The notes under the pieces: generated by a model
What the model was told of the DNA's origin: nothing
Databases searched by the model: none
What the model saw: only the letters and a program-made list of their open reading frames with translations
Assembly (NCBI GenBank): GCA_903927185.1
Contig: CAIYLW010000023.1
Span: forward strand, 1 to 64,000
Reading direction: 5' to 3'
Length of the DNA: 64,000 nucleotides
Source of the DNA: an uncultured Bacteroidota bacterium
GTDB lineage: Bacteria; Bacteroidota; Bacteroidia; Chitinophagales; Chitinophagaceae
Position numbers and translations under genes: made by a program
Part shown: piece by piece, positions 44,187 to 49,065 of the stretch
How positions within the stretch are numbered: position 1 is the first letter of the stretch
Layout: every line of letters starts with the position of its first letter

Positions 44187-45050
44187 TTGATTCGAAAATC
44201 AACCATTCAGCTTTTACGTATTCCGTTTAGCTTTTTTTTAATGCCGGTATACTGGTTTGCTTTAAGCATAACCTCCCAAATCAATTTGCCGAAGGCCATT
44301 TTGGTTTTCATTTTATTGCATGCTATACTTTACCCATCAAGCAATGGATATAATAGTTATAATGATAGGGATACAGAAAGCATCGGTGGCGTTGCCAATC
44401 CCATGCTGCCTACAAAACAATTGTATTACATAACATTAGTATTGGACATCATTGGATTTATTCTGTCATTTTACATTAGTACTGTCTTTGCAGGTTGTTT
44501 TCTATTTTTTATTATTTGTTCCAGGTTATATAGTTGGCGTGGCTTACGTTTAAAGAAATACCCTGTTCTTGGTTATCTATTGGTAATTAGCAATCAAGGC
44601 TCATTAGTTTTTTTTGCCATTGCACATGGGGTTAGTAGTAATCTTACCATGGAAGTCCCTTTATTACTAATTGGTGCTGCAGGATTATTAATTGGAGGTT
44701 TCTACCCCATCACTCAAATCTACCAACACATTCAAGATCGAAAAGATGGTGTTATAACCATTTCCATATTATTGGGAAAAAGAGGTACATTTTTATTCTG
44801 TGCAATTCTTTATTTATTAGCATTTCTTTGCCTCTTCATGCATTTTCAAACACAAAATGAGCTGACAAATTTTTGGATTATTCAACTTTTTTTCATTCCA
44901 GTGGTTCTATATTTTGTGAGTTGGGCGCTGAAAGTCTGGAAAGATCCAGATCAGGCTGATTTCAAAAATACGATGCGTATGATTTGGTTAGCAAGTACTT
45001 GCACGAATCTGGCATTTTTCACCTTATTAATATTGAACCATTTTGGCTGA
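44187..45050 (+). CDS. UbiA-like prenyltransferase, divergent motifs
   Basis: The 287-residue integral membrane protein has about eight hydrophobic helices. It aligns with UbiA-type aromatic prenyltransferases through NGYNSYNDRDTESIGG (normally NDxxDxxxD) and YQHIQDRKDGVITISILLGKRG (normally DxxxD before the DRK). Both Asp motifs are changed: the first ends in Glu and lacks the leading Asp, and the second has Gln-His where the first Asp is expected. So it may prenylate with altered metal binding, or have another role. No ATG is available in the gap; translation must start at TTG 44187, 30 bases after the A2M stop. It overlaps the PKS gene by 8 bases. Confidence 0.82.
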   Translation: MIRKSTIQLLRIPFSFFLMPVYWFALSITSQINLPKAILVFILLHAILYPSSNGYNSYNDRDTESIGGVANPMLPTKQLYYITLVLDIIGFILSFYISTVFAGCFLFFIICSRLYSWRGLRLKKYPVLGYLLVISNQGSLVFFAIAHGVSSNLTMEVPLLLIGAAGLLIGGFYPITQIYQHIQDRKDGVITISILLGKRGTFLFCAILYLLAFLCLFMHFQTQNELTNFWIIQLFFIPVVLYFVSWALKVWKDPDQADFKNTMRMIWLASTCTNLAFFTLLILNHFG

Positions 45051-46128
45051 TATCGTATCTATAGCAACTGCATCTCCCCCATTTGCACACAAACAAGTGG
45101 ACATTCTGCAATACATGCAAAAAGCCTATCAGTTAGAAGCTGATGAAAAAAGGAAACTGACTTTTCTTTATCACCATAGTGGCATCGAAACAAGACATTC
45201 TGCTATCCCAGATTATGGAGACACAAATGCTAACTGGAATTTTTTACCAAAGAACAACCAAGACGCTTTTCCTTCTATTGAGCATCGAATGGAATTGTAT
45301 AAAAAAAATGCTTCCCTATTATCTATTGAGGCTATTAAGAAATGTATAGGATCACATATTAATAGCGATCAAATTACTCATTTGATAACAATAAGTTGTA
45401 CAGGAATGAGCGCCCCAGGATTAGATTTAGAAATCATGGAAGCAATGCAACTATCACCTTCCCTTTTTAGGACTTCCATTAATTTTATGGGATGTTATGC
45501 TGCCATACATGGATTGAAAATGGCAAAATTTATTTGTGACAGTGAACCAGATGCACAAGTGGTAATAGTAGCAACAGAATTATGTACCATACATTTTCAA
45601 AAAGAGTATACACTTGAAAATGCATCGAGTAGTCTTTTATTTGCAGATGGATCTGCAGCAGTTTTGGTAAGTAATAATAGAACCAGCACAAAGGCGCTAC
45701 AGATAGAAAGCTTTCATTCTCAAGTTGCATTTCAGGGAAAAACTGATATGGCATGGGAAATTAGTAGTAAAGGTTTTTTAATGACATTAAGTAGCTATAT
45801 CCCCCAAATCATCAAAGAAGATATTGATTTACTCATTACTGCAGCATTGGCGAAAAAAGAATTAACGGTAGCTGATATCCCTTATTGGTGCATCCATCCT
45901 GGTGGCAAAAAAATTGTTGATGTCATAGAACAAAAACTATCGTTAACAAAATCACATACAAAATTTGCAAGAAAAATATTAGCAGAAAATGGAAACATGT
46001 CCTCTCCTACGATTCTTTTTGTTTTAAAAGAAATCATGGACAGTGCAATCGAATCAGGCGAGAATATATTTGGTATTGCATTTGGACCAGGACTAACTAT
46101 GGAAACCTTCCTTTGCAAAAAGAAATAA
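45043..46128 (+). CDS. Type III polyketide synthase (chalcone/stilbene synthase family)
   Basis: The 361-residue homodimeric-type ketosynthase condenses an acyl-CoA starter with malonyl-CoA units. The catalytic triad is complete: Cys151 (FMGCYAAIHGLKMA), His285 (WCIHPGGKKI) and Asn318 (NGNMSSPTILFVL). Other family motifs are ISCTGMSAPGLD, ATELCTIHF, LLFADGSAAVLV and the C-terminal FGPGLTME. Bacterial relatives often use long fatty acyl starters to make alkylresorcinols or alkylpyrones. The start is TTG 45043, overlapping the UbiA stop, suggesting translational coupling. Co-oriented methyltransferase and FAD genes follow. Confidence 0.93.
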   Translation: MADIVSIATASPPFAHKQVDILQYMQKAYQLEADEKRKLTFLYHHSGIETRHSAIPDYGDTNANWNFLPKNNQDAFPSIEHRMELYKKNASLLSIEAIKKCIGSHINSDQITHLITISCTGMSAPGLDLEIMEAMQLSPSLFRTSINFMGCYAAIHGLKMAKFICDSEPDAQVVIVATELCTIHFQKEYTLENASSSLLFADGSAAVLVSNNRTSTKALQIESFHSQVAFQGKTDMAWEISSKGFLMTLSSYIPQIIKEDIDLLITAALAKKELTVADIPYWCIHPGGKKIVDVIEQKLSLTKSHTKFARKILAENGNMSSPTILFVLKEIMDSAIESGENIFGIAFGPGLTMETFLCKKK

Positions 46129-46139
46129 TTTTATTTGAA

Positions 46140-46838
46140 ATGAATTTTAAAATCAGATCATATCAAAAGGAATTACTCGACGGTGAAGGAATTCCTTTTG
46201 CGGATATTGCTCAAACCATGCGGGAGCTGAATACCATTAATACATTATTGGGTGGCCATGCCATTACTTTAGATGGGTTTAAACAGTTAGCCAAAGACAA
46301 AAAAGAAATTACGGTATGTGAAATTGGTTGTGGTGGTGGTGATAATTTAGTAGCTATTGTTAAATATTGTGAAGCTCACAAAATTAAGATTCATTGTATT
46401 GGTATTGATTATAATAATGAATGCATTGTTTTTGCTAAACAAAATGAATACTTGAAAGCAAATACCGATTTTATCTGTAGCGATTATTCTAAAGTTTATT
46501 TTGAAAACAAACCAGATATTATTTTCTCCAGTTTATTTTGTCACCATTTTACAGATGAAGCATTAGTTTTTCAACTAAATTGGATGAAAGAAAATGCTGA
46601 GAAAGGTTTTTTCATCAATGACTTACAAAGGCATTGGTTGGCTTATTATTTAATAAAAATATTGACAAATGTATTTTCAAAATCCTATTTAGTTAAAAAC
46701 GATGCCTGCTTAAGTGTTGCCCGTGGTTTTATTAAATCTGATTGGAAAAATTTTTTCTCGATATATGGTATTGAAAATTATAAAATTAGATGGAAATGGG
46801 CTTTTCGTTATTTGATAGTAAAAGAACAGGGACTTTAA
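46140..46838 (+). CDS. Class I SAM-dependent methyltransferase of the PKS cluster
   Basis: The ATG at 46140 begins MNFKIRSYQKELLDGEGIPFADIAQTMRELNTIN (232 residues) and leaves an 11-base gap after the PKS gene; the ORF track start inside the PKS gene is rejected. SAM-binding motif I is VCEIGCGGGDNLVAIVKYC, followed by the acidic IGIDYNNECI and a post-I region ending at IIFSSLFCHHFTDEALV. It resembles small-molecule O- or C-methyltransferases in polyketide and quinone clusters. The likely substrate is the PKS product. The stop is adjacent to the start of the FAD oxidoreductase with no gap. Confidence 0.87.
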   Translation: MNFKIRSYQKELLDGEGIPFADIAQTMRELNTINTLLGGHAITLDGFKQLAKDKKEITVCEIGCGGGDNLVAIVKYCEAHKIKIHCIGIDYNNECIVFAKQNEYLKANTDFICSDYSKVYFENKPDIIFSSLFCHHFTDEALVFQLNWMKENAEKGFFINDLQRHWLAYYLIKILTNVFSKSYLVKNDACLSVARGFIKSDWKNFFSIYGIENYKIRWKWAFRYLIVKEQGL

Positions 46839-47972
46839 ATGAAAGTAGAATTTGATATCGCAATTATTGGAGGAGGCCTCGCAGGATTAAGTCTTTCCAT
46901 TCAATGTGCAGATGCTGGATATAAAACAATATTATTCGAAAAAGAAACCTACCCATTTCATAAAGTTTGTGGTGAATATATTAGCAATGAATCCCTTCCT
47001 TTTTTAGAAAAATTAGGCGTGCCAATATCAACCTGGGGACTTCCAAACATTAATGAATTAAAAATATCCGCCCAAAATGGAAGGTCTTACCAATTTTCAC
47101 TTCCTCTTGGAGGCTTTGGAATTAGCCGGTATAAACTAGATGAATATTTATATCGCATTGCAAGAGATAAAGGAGTCACATTTTTTACAGGAACCAAAGT
47201 GCAGGATCTGGTTTTTAAAACAAATGGATTCGAAATTATAACAGACAATGGCAGTTATAACAGCAGGATAGCTGCGGGTAGTTTTGGCAAAAAGAGTAAT
47301 CTGGATATTCATTTATCTCGACCTTTTGCAAAAGCGAAACCCAATGCTTTAAATAATTTTATTGGCGTTAAATACCATATTCGATACCCACATCCTAGAA
47401 ATCAAATTGCTTTACACAACTTTGATAACGGCTATTGTGGTATTGAAGAAATAGAAAATGGAGATTGTTGTTTGTGCTATTTAACTACAGCAGAAAACTT
47501 AAGGAAATCAGGGAATACCATTCCTGAAATGGAGGAGCAAATTTTATGGAAAAATCCTTTTTTAAAAGATATTTTTAACAACGCAGAATTTATTTATAAA
47601 AAGCCGCTGACAATTTCACAGATAAGTTTTCAAAAGAAATCGCAAATAGAGGAACATATGTTATGTGTTGGAGATGCAGCTGGCATGATCACACCTTTAT
47701 GTGGTAACGGAATGAGCATGGCTTTGCATGGCAGCAAAATTGCTTTTCAAAATATTGATTACTATTTCAAGAACGGACAAAATCGCTCCGTCTTAGAATC
47801 GAACTATGAGCTGCAATGGAAAAAACAATTTGCAAAAAGGGTTTTTGTTGGCAGAACAATTCAACGTCTTTTTGGAAAGGATTATGTGACAAATCTTTTT
47901 TTACAATTCATGCAATATTTTCCTAGTCTATCCAGAAAATTAATCAACACTACACACGGTAAGCCATTCTAA
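46839..47972 (+). CDS. FAD-dependent oxidoreductase of the PKS cluster (geranylgeranyl-reductase/monooxygenase-like)
   Basis: The 377-residue flavoprotein has the dinucleotide motif IAIIGGGLAGLSLSIQCADAGYKTILFEKE, the HKVCGEYIS segment typical of the geranylgeranyl reductase / aromatic hydroxylase group, GISRYKLDEYLYRIARDKGV, a basic KKSNLD stretch, and the second FAD motif MLCVGDAAGMITPLCGNGMSMALHGSKI. In quinone-lipid clusters such an enzyme would hydroxylate or oxidise the aromatic ring; reduction of an isoprenoid chain is the alternative. It immediately follows the methyltransferase gene and closes the core cluster. Confidence 0.87.
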   Translation: MKVEFDIAIIGGGLAGLSLSIQCADAGYKTILFEKETYPFHKVCGEYISNESLPFLEKLGVPISTWGLPNINELKISAQNGRSYQFSLPLGGFGISRYKLDEYLYRIARDKGVTFFTGTKVQDLVFKTNGFEIITDNGSYNSRIAAGSFGKKSNLDIHLSRPFAKAKPNALNNFIGVKYHIRYPHPRNQIALHNFDNGYCGIEEIENGDCCLCYLTTAENLRKSGNTIPEMEEQILWKNPFLKDIFNNAEFIYKKPLTISQISFQKKSQIEEHMLCVGDAAGMITPLCGNGMSMALHGSKIAFQNIDYYFKNGQNRSVLESNYELQWKKQFAKRVFVGRTIQRLFGKDYVTNLFLQFMQYFPSLSRKLINTTHGKPF

Positions 47973-48009
47973 TTCTTAAGATTCAGATTTATTGTCGAAT
48001 TTCGCAAAC

Positions 48010-49065
48010 ATGCAGTTTGATTATATTATTGTAGGACAAGGACTCTGCGGTACATTCCTGAGCTGGAATTTAATGAAAGCCGGAAAGAGTGTATTGGTAA
48101 TAGATGAAAACCAAACTTCCACATCTACAAAAGTGGCAAGTGGTGTGATTAATCCTGTAACTGGAAGAAGAATTGTACGTACCTGGGAGATTGAAAAATT
48201 ATTGCCTTTTGCCTGGAATGCGTATACAGAATTAGGAAACGAATTGGGTGATGAATTAGTTAGAAAATGTAATATTCTTAATTTTCATCCTACTCCTCAA
48301 ATGGAGTTGGCATTTCGGGATAGAATGCCTGAAGAAAAAGAATATTTGCGTGTACCTGAGGATCAGGAAGCCTGGCGGGCCTATTTTAATTTCCCTTTCA
48401 GCATTGGTGAAATTGATTCTTGTTTATTAATTGAGTTGCATGGCATGCTGAACGGATGGAGGAAAAAATTAGATGATGCAAATGCATTAATAAATGAACG
48501 TTTTGATTGGATAGCTTGCGAAATAGAAACAGATCTGGTACGATATCAAAATCATACCGCTCAAAAAATAATTTTCTGCGATGGTGCAGAAGGAATAGAC
48601 AATCGCTATTTTAATTTATTACCCTATTCAAGAAATAAAGGAGAAGCAATTATTGCAGATATTCCGGCGCTTCCCAGAAATCATATTTATAAACAAGGCA
48701 TTAGTTTGGTACCCTGGCATAATAATTTATGGTGGATTGGCTCAACACATGAATGGAATTTTACAGATCTAATGCCAACTGCAGAATTTAGAAGAAATAC
48801 ACAAACCCAATTATACCATTGGTTAAAACTTCCTTTCGAAATAGTAGATCATTTTGCATCAGAGCGTCCCACAAATATGGAAAGAAGACCTTTTGCAGGC
48901 CTTCACCCCATTCATCAATCAGTGGGTTTATTCAATGGGATGGGCACCAAGGGCTGTTCGCTTGCCCCTTATTTTGGTAAACAATTTGCCGATTTTCTAA
49001 CAAATCAAACTCCCATGGAACCATTAGTGGATATTGCTCGCTTCAACAATATTTTAAGTAGATAA
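48010..49065 (+). CDS. FAD-dependent oxidoreductase, DAO family
   Basis: The 351-residue protein has the FAD motif FDYIIVGQGLCGTFLSWNLMKAGKSVLVIDE, ASGVINPVTGRRIVRTWEI, a middle substrate domain, and the C-terminal RPTNMERRPFAGLHPIHQSVGLFNGMGTKGCSLAPYFGKQFADFL, as in the D-amino acid oxidase / glycine oxidase fold. The substrate is not evident; it may oxidise an amine. The ORF track start (TTG 47992) is replaced with the ATG at 48010. It lies 37 bases after the PKS-cluster FAD gene on the same strand, so it may be the fifth gene of that operon, but homologues commonly stand elsewhere. Confidence 0.85.
   Translation: MQFDYIIVGQGLCGTFLSWNLMKAGKSVLVIDENQTSTSTKVASGVINPVTGRRIVRTWEIEKLLPFAWNAYTELGNELGDELVRKCNILNFHPTPQMELAFRDRMPEEKEYLRVPEDQEAWRAYFNFPFSIGEIDSCLLIELHGMLNGWRKKLDDANALINERFDWIACEIETDLVRYQNHTAQKIIFCDGAEGIDNRYFNLLPYSRNKGEAIIADIPALPRNHIYKQGISLVPWHNNLWWIGSTHEWNFTDLMPTAEFRRNTQTQLYHWLKLPFEIVDHFASERPTNMERRPFAGLHPIHQSVGLFNGMGTKGCSLAPYFGKQFADFLTNQTPMEPLVDIARFNNILSR

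Follow-up and report, generated by a model that had tools for sequence, protein, structure and literature searches.

A conserved UbiA-linked type III polyketide synthase cluster in Chitinophagaceae, predicted to make a membrane phenolic lipid

Several bacterial gene clusters built around a type III polyketide synthase (PKS) have described products. In Actinoplanes missouriensis, the agq cluster makes 6-alkyl-4-O-dihydrogeranyl-2-methoxyhydroquinones (PMC3569393), and a membrane prenyltransferase O-prenylates the polyketide (PMC4044012). The cyanobacterial genes hidABC lead to hierridins (PMC8086630), planctomycetal operons of this type lead to C15 and C17 (pentadecyl- and heptadecyl-) resorcinols, which gain one methyl group when the methyltransferase and oxidoreductase are coexpressed (PMC10896814), and the three genes of the pkq operon yield polyketide quinones, which carry electrons in respiration (PMC9927152). 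Here we analyze four genes from a freshwater Chitinophagaceae bacterium, encoding a UbiA-superfamily membrane protein, a type III PKS, a class-I S-adenosylmethionine (SAM) methyltransferase, and a FAD-dependent oxidoreductase, which lie head to tail at positions 44187-47972 on the forward strand of a 64,000-nucleotide stretch of contig CAIYLW010000023.1 (the window). The agq cluster (Awakawa et al. 2011) reportedly consists of exactly these four enzyme types. We propose that the four genes specify a pathway to a phenolic lipid of the membrane, similar in kind to hierridins, polyketide quinones, or the agq products, with prenylation by the UbiA protein included, and we give this complete reading about an even chance.

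Gene layout and co-inheritance

The UbiA gene (44187..45050; 287 amino acids, TTG start; PF01040, 64.5 bits) overlaps the PKS gene (45043..46128; 361 amino acids) by 8 bases (45043-45050), such that the TTG start of the PKS gene overlaps the UbiA stop. The open reading frame (ORF) of the methyltransferase spans 46113-46838, and its likely start is the in-frame ATG at 46140, because the alignments of many relatives begin only near residue 10 of the ORF; this start leaves an 11-base gap after the PKS stop. The FAD oxidoreductase gene (46839..47972; 377 amino acids) follows with no gap (46838/46839). These coordinates agree with the compact layout described in an earlier note on this DNA, and the order and strand recur in relatives, being identical among Chitinophagaceae down to about 50% identity, while only the closest relatives also share the A2M gene upstream and the genes that lie downstream. 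All 11 close relatives compared retain the UbiA/PKS overlap and its TTG start, so translational coupling of these two genes is probably conserved too. Judged from sequence profiles, the domain assignments of the UbiA protein, PKS, and methyltransferase and the FAD-oxidoreductase class of the fourth protein are firm. The region had fewer promoter-like sites than shuffled sequence did, and we draw no support from them.

We surveyed 395 sampled Bacteroidota genomes and a second set of 61 relatives, counting as UbiA orthologs matches of at least 130 bits; other UbiA matches in the survey reached at most 73 bits, all in genome family f44. A type III PKS match is present in 179 of the 395 genomes and a UbiA ortholog in 26, and all 26 also carry the PKS and a close homolog of the FAD enzyme, with UbiA adjoining the PKS in 20 and present but unlinked in 6. 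The close FAD homolog occurs in 59 genomes, every one of which has a type III PKS and 33 of which have no UbiA ortholog; the trio of PKS, class-I methyltransferase, and FAD enzyme is thus more widespread than the UbiA link. Hypergeometric tests, in which shared ancestry is ignored, gave 4e-10 for UbiA among genomes with the PKS and 1e-24 among those with the FAD enzyme. Ancestry alone does not explain the co-occurrence, because every listed genome of the window's own genus and of families f1, f19, and f3 carries either both UbiA and this PKS or neither of them. Among the 61 relatives, UbiA is found in 10 genomes, exactly the 10 with this PKS clade, and the PKS tree unites the UbiA-linked sequences (core local support, 93%). 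The cluster proposed in the earlier note is therefore not refuted by its distribution, and the comparison of genomes indicates that the four genes form a functional, widely conserved pathway and not a chance neighborhood.

A DAO-type FAD oxidoreductase gene with weak ThiO/MnmC-like matches (47992-49065) begins 19 bases after the cluster. We considered it as a fifth member and dropped it: its position behind the cluster is limited to close relatives, and it was not seen at loci L031 and L032.

Predicted ring closure, methylation, and oxidation

The PKS matches both Chal_sti_synt domains (PF00195, 84.4 bits; PF02797, 87.2 bits; cutoff, 27), and its relatives in the Protein Data Bank (PDB) include 4b0n and PKS18. 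The catalytic triad Cys151-His285-Asn318, which the earlier note had called intact, is invariant in 40 of 40 clade members. Trp238 stands at the column of ArsB residue 281 in all 40, and Met247, nine residues on, is present in 38; this ArsB/ArsC switch column was placed indirectly, via PKS11, THNS (Tyr224), and 2-PS. In Azotobacter, ArsB carries Trp281 and makes resorcinols, ArsC carries the matching Gly284 and makes pyrones, and in ArsC the substitution G284W both moves Met293 to a new position and shifts the products toward resorcinol (PMC6274091). This Trp has also been pointed out in pkqA and in the polyketide-quinone synthase of Streptomyces (PMC9927152). In addition, Cys181 corresponds to the acyl-tunnel Cys205 of PKS18, and Cys119 corresponds to the second active-site Cys of THNS/ORAS. 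Because of these correspondences at Trp238/Met247, Cys181, and Cys119, the predicted activity of the PKS is most likely that of a long-acyl resorcinol synthase. We found no assigned product for a type III PKS of Bacteroidota in the open-access literature searched.

The methyltransferase is a class-I Rossmann protein that matches Methyltransf_31 (PF13847, 40 bits), Methyltransf_25, and Methyltransf_11, along with NF004851/PRK06202 (111 bits); no ICMT match was seen in profile searches. The FAD enzyme, with Pfam matches to DAO and FAD_binding_3, is a predicted aromatic-ring hydroxylase, given its family profile and its occurrence without UbiA. It matches the QhpG monooxygenase (65.5 bits) and Ubi hydroxylases, its PDB relatives are mainly flavin halogenases and monooxygenases with one geranylgeranyl-reductase-like protein, and FAD-type neighbors of type III PKSs in other phyla are annotated as monooxygenases. 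Its AlphaFold model (pLDDT 46) is too poor for use. On Hymenobacter swuensis plasmid pHsw1 (L126:2063-7077), a homolog with 39% identity has an isonitrile synthase and a TauD/TfdA dioxygenase as its neighbors; other biosynthetic clusters thus use this FAD family too.

Type III PKS genes also occur in other settings. A second Bacteroidota cluster type (L104:5113-10618, L106:4999-9612, and L108:5278-9879) has the order FAD-MT-PKS (MT, methyltransferase) followed by a FabF-like ketosynthase, with a FabA-like dehydratase in L104 and L106, a short-chain dehydrogenase/reductase (SDR) in L104, and a phosphopantetheinyl transferase in L108; at the position of Trp238, the PKS copies that were checked carry Phe, and the arrangement resembles a PKS supplied by fatty-acid enzymes of its own. 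Psychrobacter urativorans plasmid NZ_CP012711.1 (L036) carries a PKS 41% identical to that of the window along with FAD and methyltransferase genes and without an adjacent UbiA gene. This gammaproteobacterial plasmid PKS is basal to the UbiA-linked clade of Bacteroidota, a position suggestive of transfer. In many genomes of family f44, the contig ends about 10-13 kb away from a type III PKS (e.g., G246:C4:11910, G357:C21:11177, and G113:C17:11297), and this similar distance hints at conserved synteny beside a repeated element, for example an rRNA operon.

The UbiA protein and the proposed pathway

The AlphaFold model of the UbiA protein (pLDDT 82.8) has a predicted fold best matched in Foldseek by DGGGP synthase, ApUbiA, and AfUbiA (TM 0.64-0.71). 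With these prenyltransferases it shares, besides the fold, the Asn and Asp of motif 1 and the last Asp of motif 2, but identity is 16-19% and both Asp-rich motifs are altered. Motif 1 reads N56SxxD60xD62, in which N56 and D60 are kept and the third Asp of NxxxDxxxD is not conserved; motif 2 reads YPxTQxYQHxxD, giving Q180H181xxD184 instead of DxxxD, and in alignment to ApUbiA, Gln180 stands at the first Asp of DxxxD and the last Asp is kept as D184. The QHxxD signature is found in nearly all orthologs with a readable stretch, including the unlinked L123-L125, whereas UbiA paralogs of the same genome (L111, L113) show Asp motifs. These proteins would constitute a distinct UbiA subfamily, recognized here by its QHxxD second Asp-rich motif. 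No relatives of this UbiA were found on plasmids.

From the gene set, its co-inheritance, the conserved residues, and the predicted fold of the UbiA protein, all established here, we infer a chemistry in four steps. The PKS would condense a fatty acyl-CoA or acyl-ACP with three malonyl-CoA into a tetraketide and close it by aldol condensation to a 5-alkylresorcinol, as its active-site residues and phylogeny suggest. The class-I methyltransferase would then methylate the ring, on O or C, and the FAD enzyme would hydroxylate it to a methoxy- or methyl-hydroquinone that could be oxidized to a quinone. In the least certain step, the UbiA protein may attach a prenyl group to the product within the membrane, as does the membrane-bound prenyltransferase of A. 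missouriensis. The methylated, oxidized polyketide aromatic lipid envisaged in the earlier note is well supported, since the trio is the gene set of the hierridin/planctomycetal and polyketide-quinone systems and the switch Trp of the PKS is of the resorcinol type.

Several points weigh against the complete four-enzyme reading: the cluster encodes no acyl-activating enzyme, the switch Trp is not fully predictive of product (the pyrone synthase PKS11 has it, and the resorcinol synthase CylI has Leu there), the profile of the FAD enzyme lies near geranylgeranyl reductases, and, with both motifs of the UbiA protein departing from the canonical pattern, its binding of a prenyl diphosphate is unproven. 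If the PKS, methyltransferase, and FAD enzyme make a hierridin/pkq-type lipid, the UbiA protein might instead catalyze another reaction, serve another isoprenoid acceptor, or bind or transport the product. Its near-constant QHxxD beside the intact Asp motifs of paralogs in its own genome, its separation from the PKS in 6 of 26 genomes, and the frequency of the trio without it (59 genomes with the FAD homolog, 26 with UbiA) all fit such a role. Yet the protein is perfectly co-inherited with the PKS clade and keeps N56, D60, and D184, the agq precedent exists, and chlorophyll synthase, which in the same alignment also has no Asp at the -4 position, is a working prenyltransferase, so the QHxxD change does not exclude prenyl transfer. 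We therefore regard a nonprenylating UbiA protein as unlikely, though a serious contender; the idea in the earlier note that the protein adds an isoprenoid remains plausible from its co-inheritance and from agq, and unproven on account of its noncanonical second motif.

The role of the FAD enzyme can be questioned in the same way, as it might saturate an isoprenoid tail added by UbiA in the manner of geranylgeranyl reductases. Its best NCBIfam match is TIGR02032 of the geranylgeranyl reductase superfamily (94 bits), and the agq product has a dihydrogeranyl group (PMC3569393). That match falls under the family cutoff of 158.8, however, the QhpG and Ubi hydroxylase matches and the monooxygenase annotations in other phyla point to ring chemistry, and the enzyme accompanies the PKS in 33 genomes without a UbiA ortholog, which ties its substrate to the polyketide; tail saturation in place of ring hydroxylation is thus quite unlikely. 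We find it slightly harder still to credit that the PKS is an alkylpyrone synthase and that the cluster, like bpsAB of Bacillus, leads to a methylated pyrone lipid. The pyrone synthase PKS11 shares the switch Trp, and the closest PDB sequences include the pyrone-forming PKS18, but the Trp/Met pair is that of ArsB-type enzymes, Leu stands at the switch position in both PKS18 and the 7cb3 enzyme, a co-occurring FAD enzyme suits an aromatic ring, and homologous trios make resorcinols (PMC10896814). That the four genes are chance neighbors from separate pathways has in its favor only the unlinked position of UbiA in six genomes; the conserved order and overlap, the 20/26 adjacency, and the concordant presence and absence contradict it, and we dropped it as scarcely credible.

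Near-perfect co-inheritance, a distinct UbiA subfamily, and a residue-level prediction that favors resorcinol over pyrone together make the proposed four-enzyme route a small and directly testable pathway. A bolder version is a long shot: a prenylated polyketide quinone with one alkyl and one isoprenoid tail, made by a UbiA subfamily with new QHxxD chemistry, that would join menaquinone as a second redox carrier in these Bacteroidota. Should the product be a quinone, polyketide-quinone respiration would extend beyond Actinobacteria, and should the UbiA protein work without the usual Asp pair, the active-site rules of its superfamily would change.

Comparison with known systems

The earlier note had likened the cluster to SrsABC of Streptomyces. 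With pkqABC (Mycobacterium smegmatis and Streptomyces) and srsABC (S. griseus), the window shares the PKS-MT-oxidoreductase order, the Trp at ArsB position 281, and a predicted alkylquinone-type product, but no UbiA is reported in those operons. SrsB is an ICMT-type methyltransferase, and membership of the window's cluster in the srs/pkq group is doubtful because its class-I Rossmann methyltransferase seems to be of a different type. The analogy thus holds as a functional likeness and fails for the methyltransferase, which is nearer to that of hierridin-type operons; agq and pkqABC had been overlooked.

Homology instead points to membership in the hid-type trio, as judged through a proxy, the planctomycete operon L040 (MT-FAD-PKS), which matches the window's profiles for methyltransferase (110 bits) and PKS (285 bits) and, more weakly, for the FAD enzyme (45 bits). 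Through this proxy, hidABC and the planctomycetal operons share with the window a homologous PKS, class-I methyltransferase, and FAD oxidoreductase in one operon. The hid-type order is MT-FAD-PKS, whereas that of the window is UbiA-PKS-MT-FAD, and orders vary among Bacteroidota. The published hid and planctomycetal operons lack UbiA, except for one cyanobacterial (Raphidiopsis) cluster with a prenyltransferase (PMC8086630).

By analogy, agq of A. missouriensis is the closest precedent. Both are type III PKS clusters. In agq the polyketide is methylated, hydroxylated on the ring, and acted on by a membrane-bound prenyltransferase (PMC3569393, PMC4044012), and these functions have candidate counterparts in the window, where PKS, methyltransferase, FAD enzyme, and UbiA stand in one cluster. 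The two differ in phylum and in the altered second motif of the window's UbiA protein, and the likeness is one of gene content. The Bacteroidota version and its unusual UbiA protein appear to be unstudied so far: what is new here is the Bacteroidota lineage and the putative QHxxD subfamily, while the occurrence of the four enzyme types together was already known from an actinomycete.

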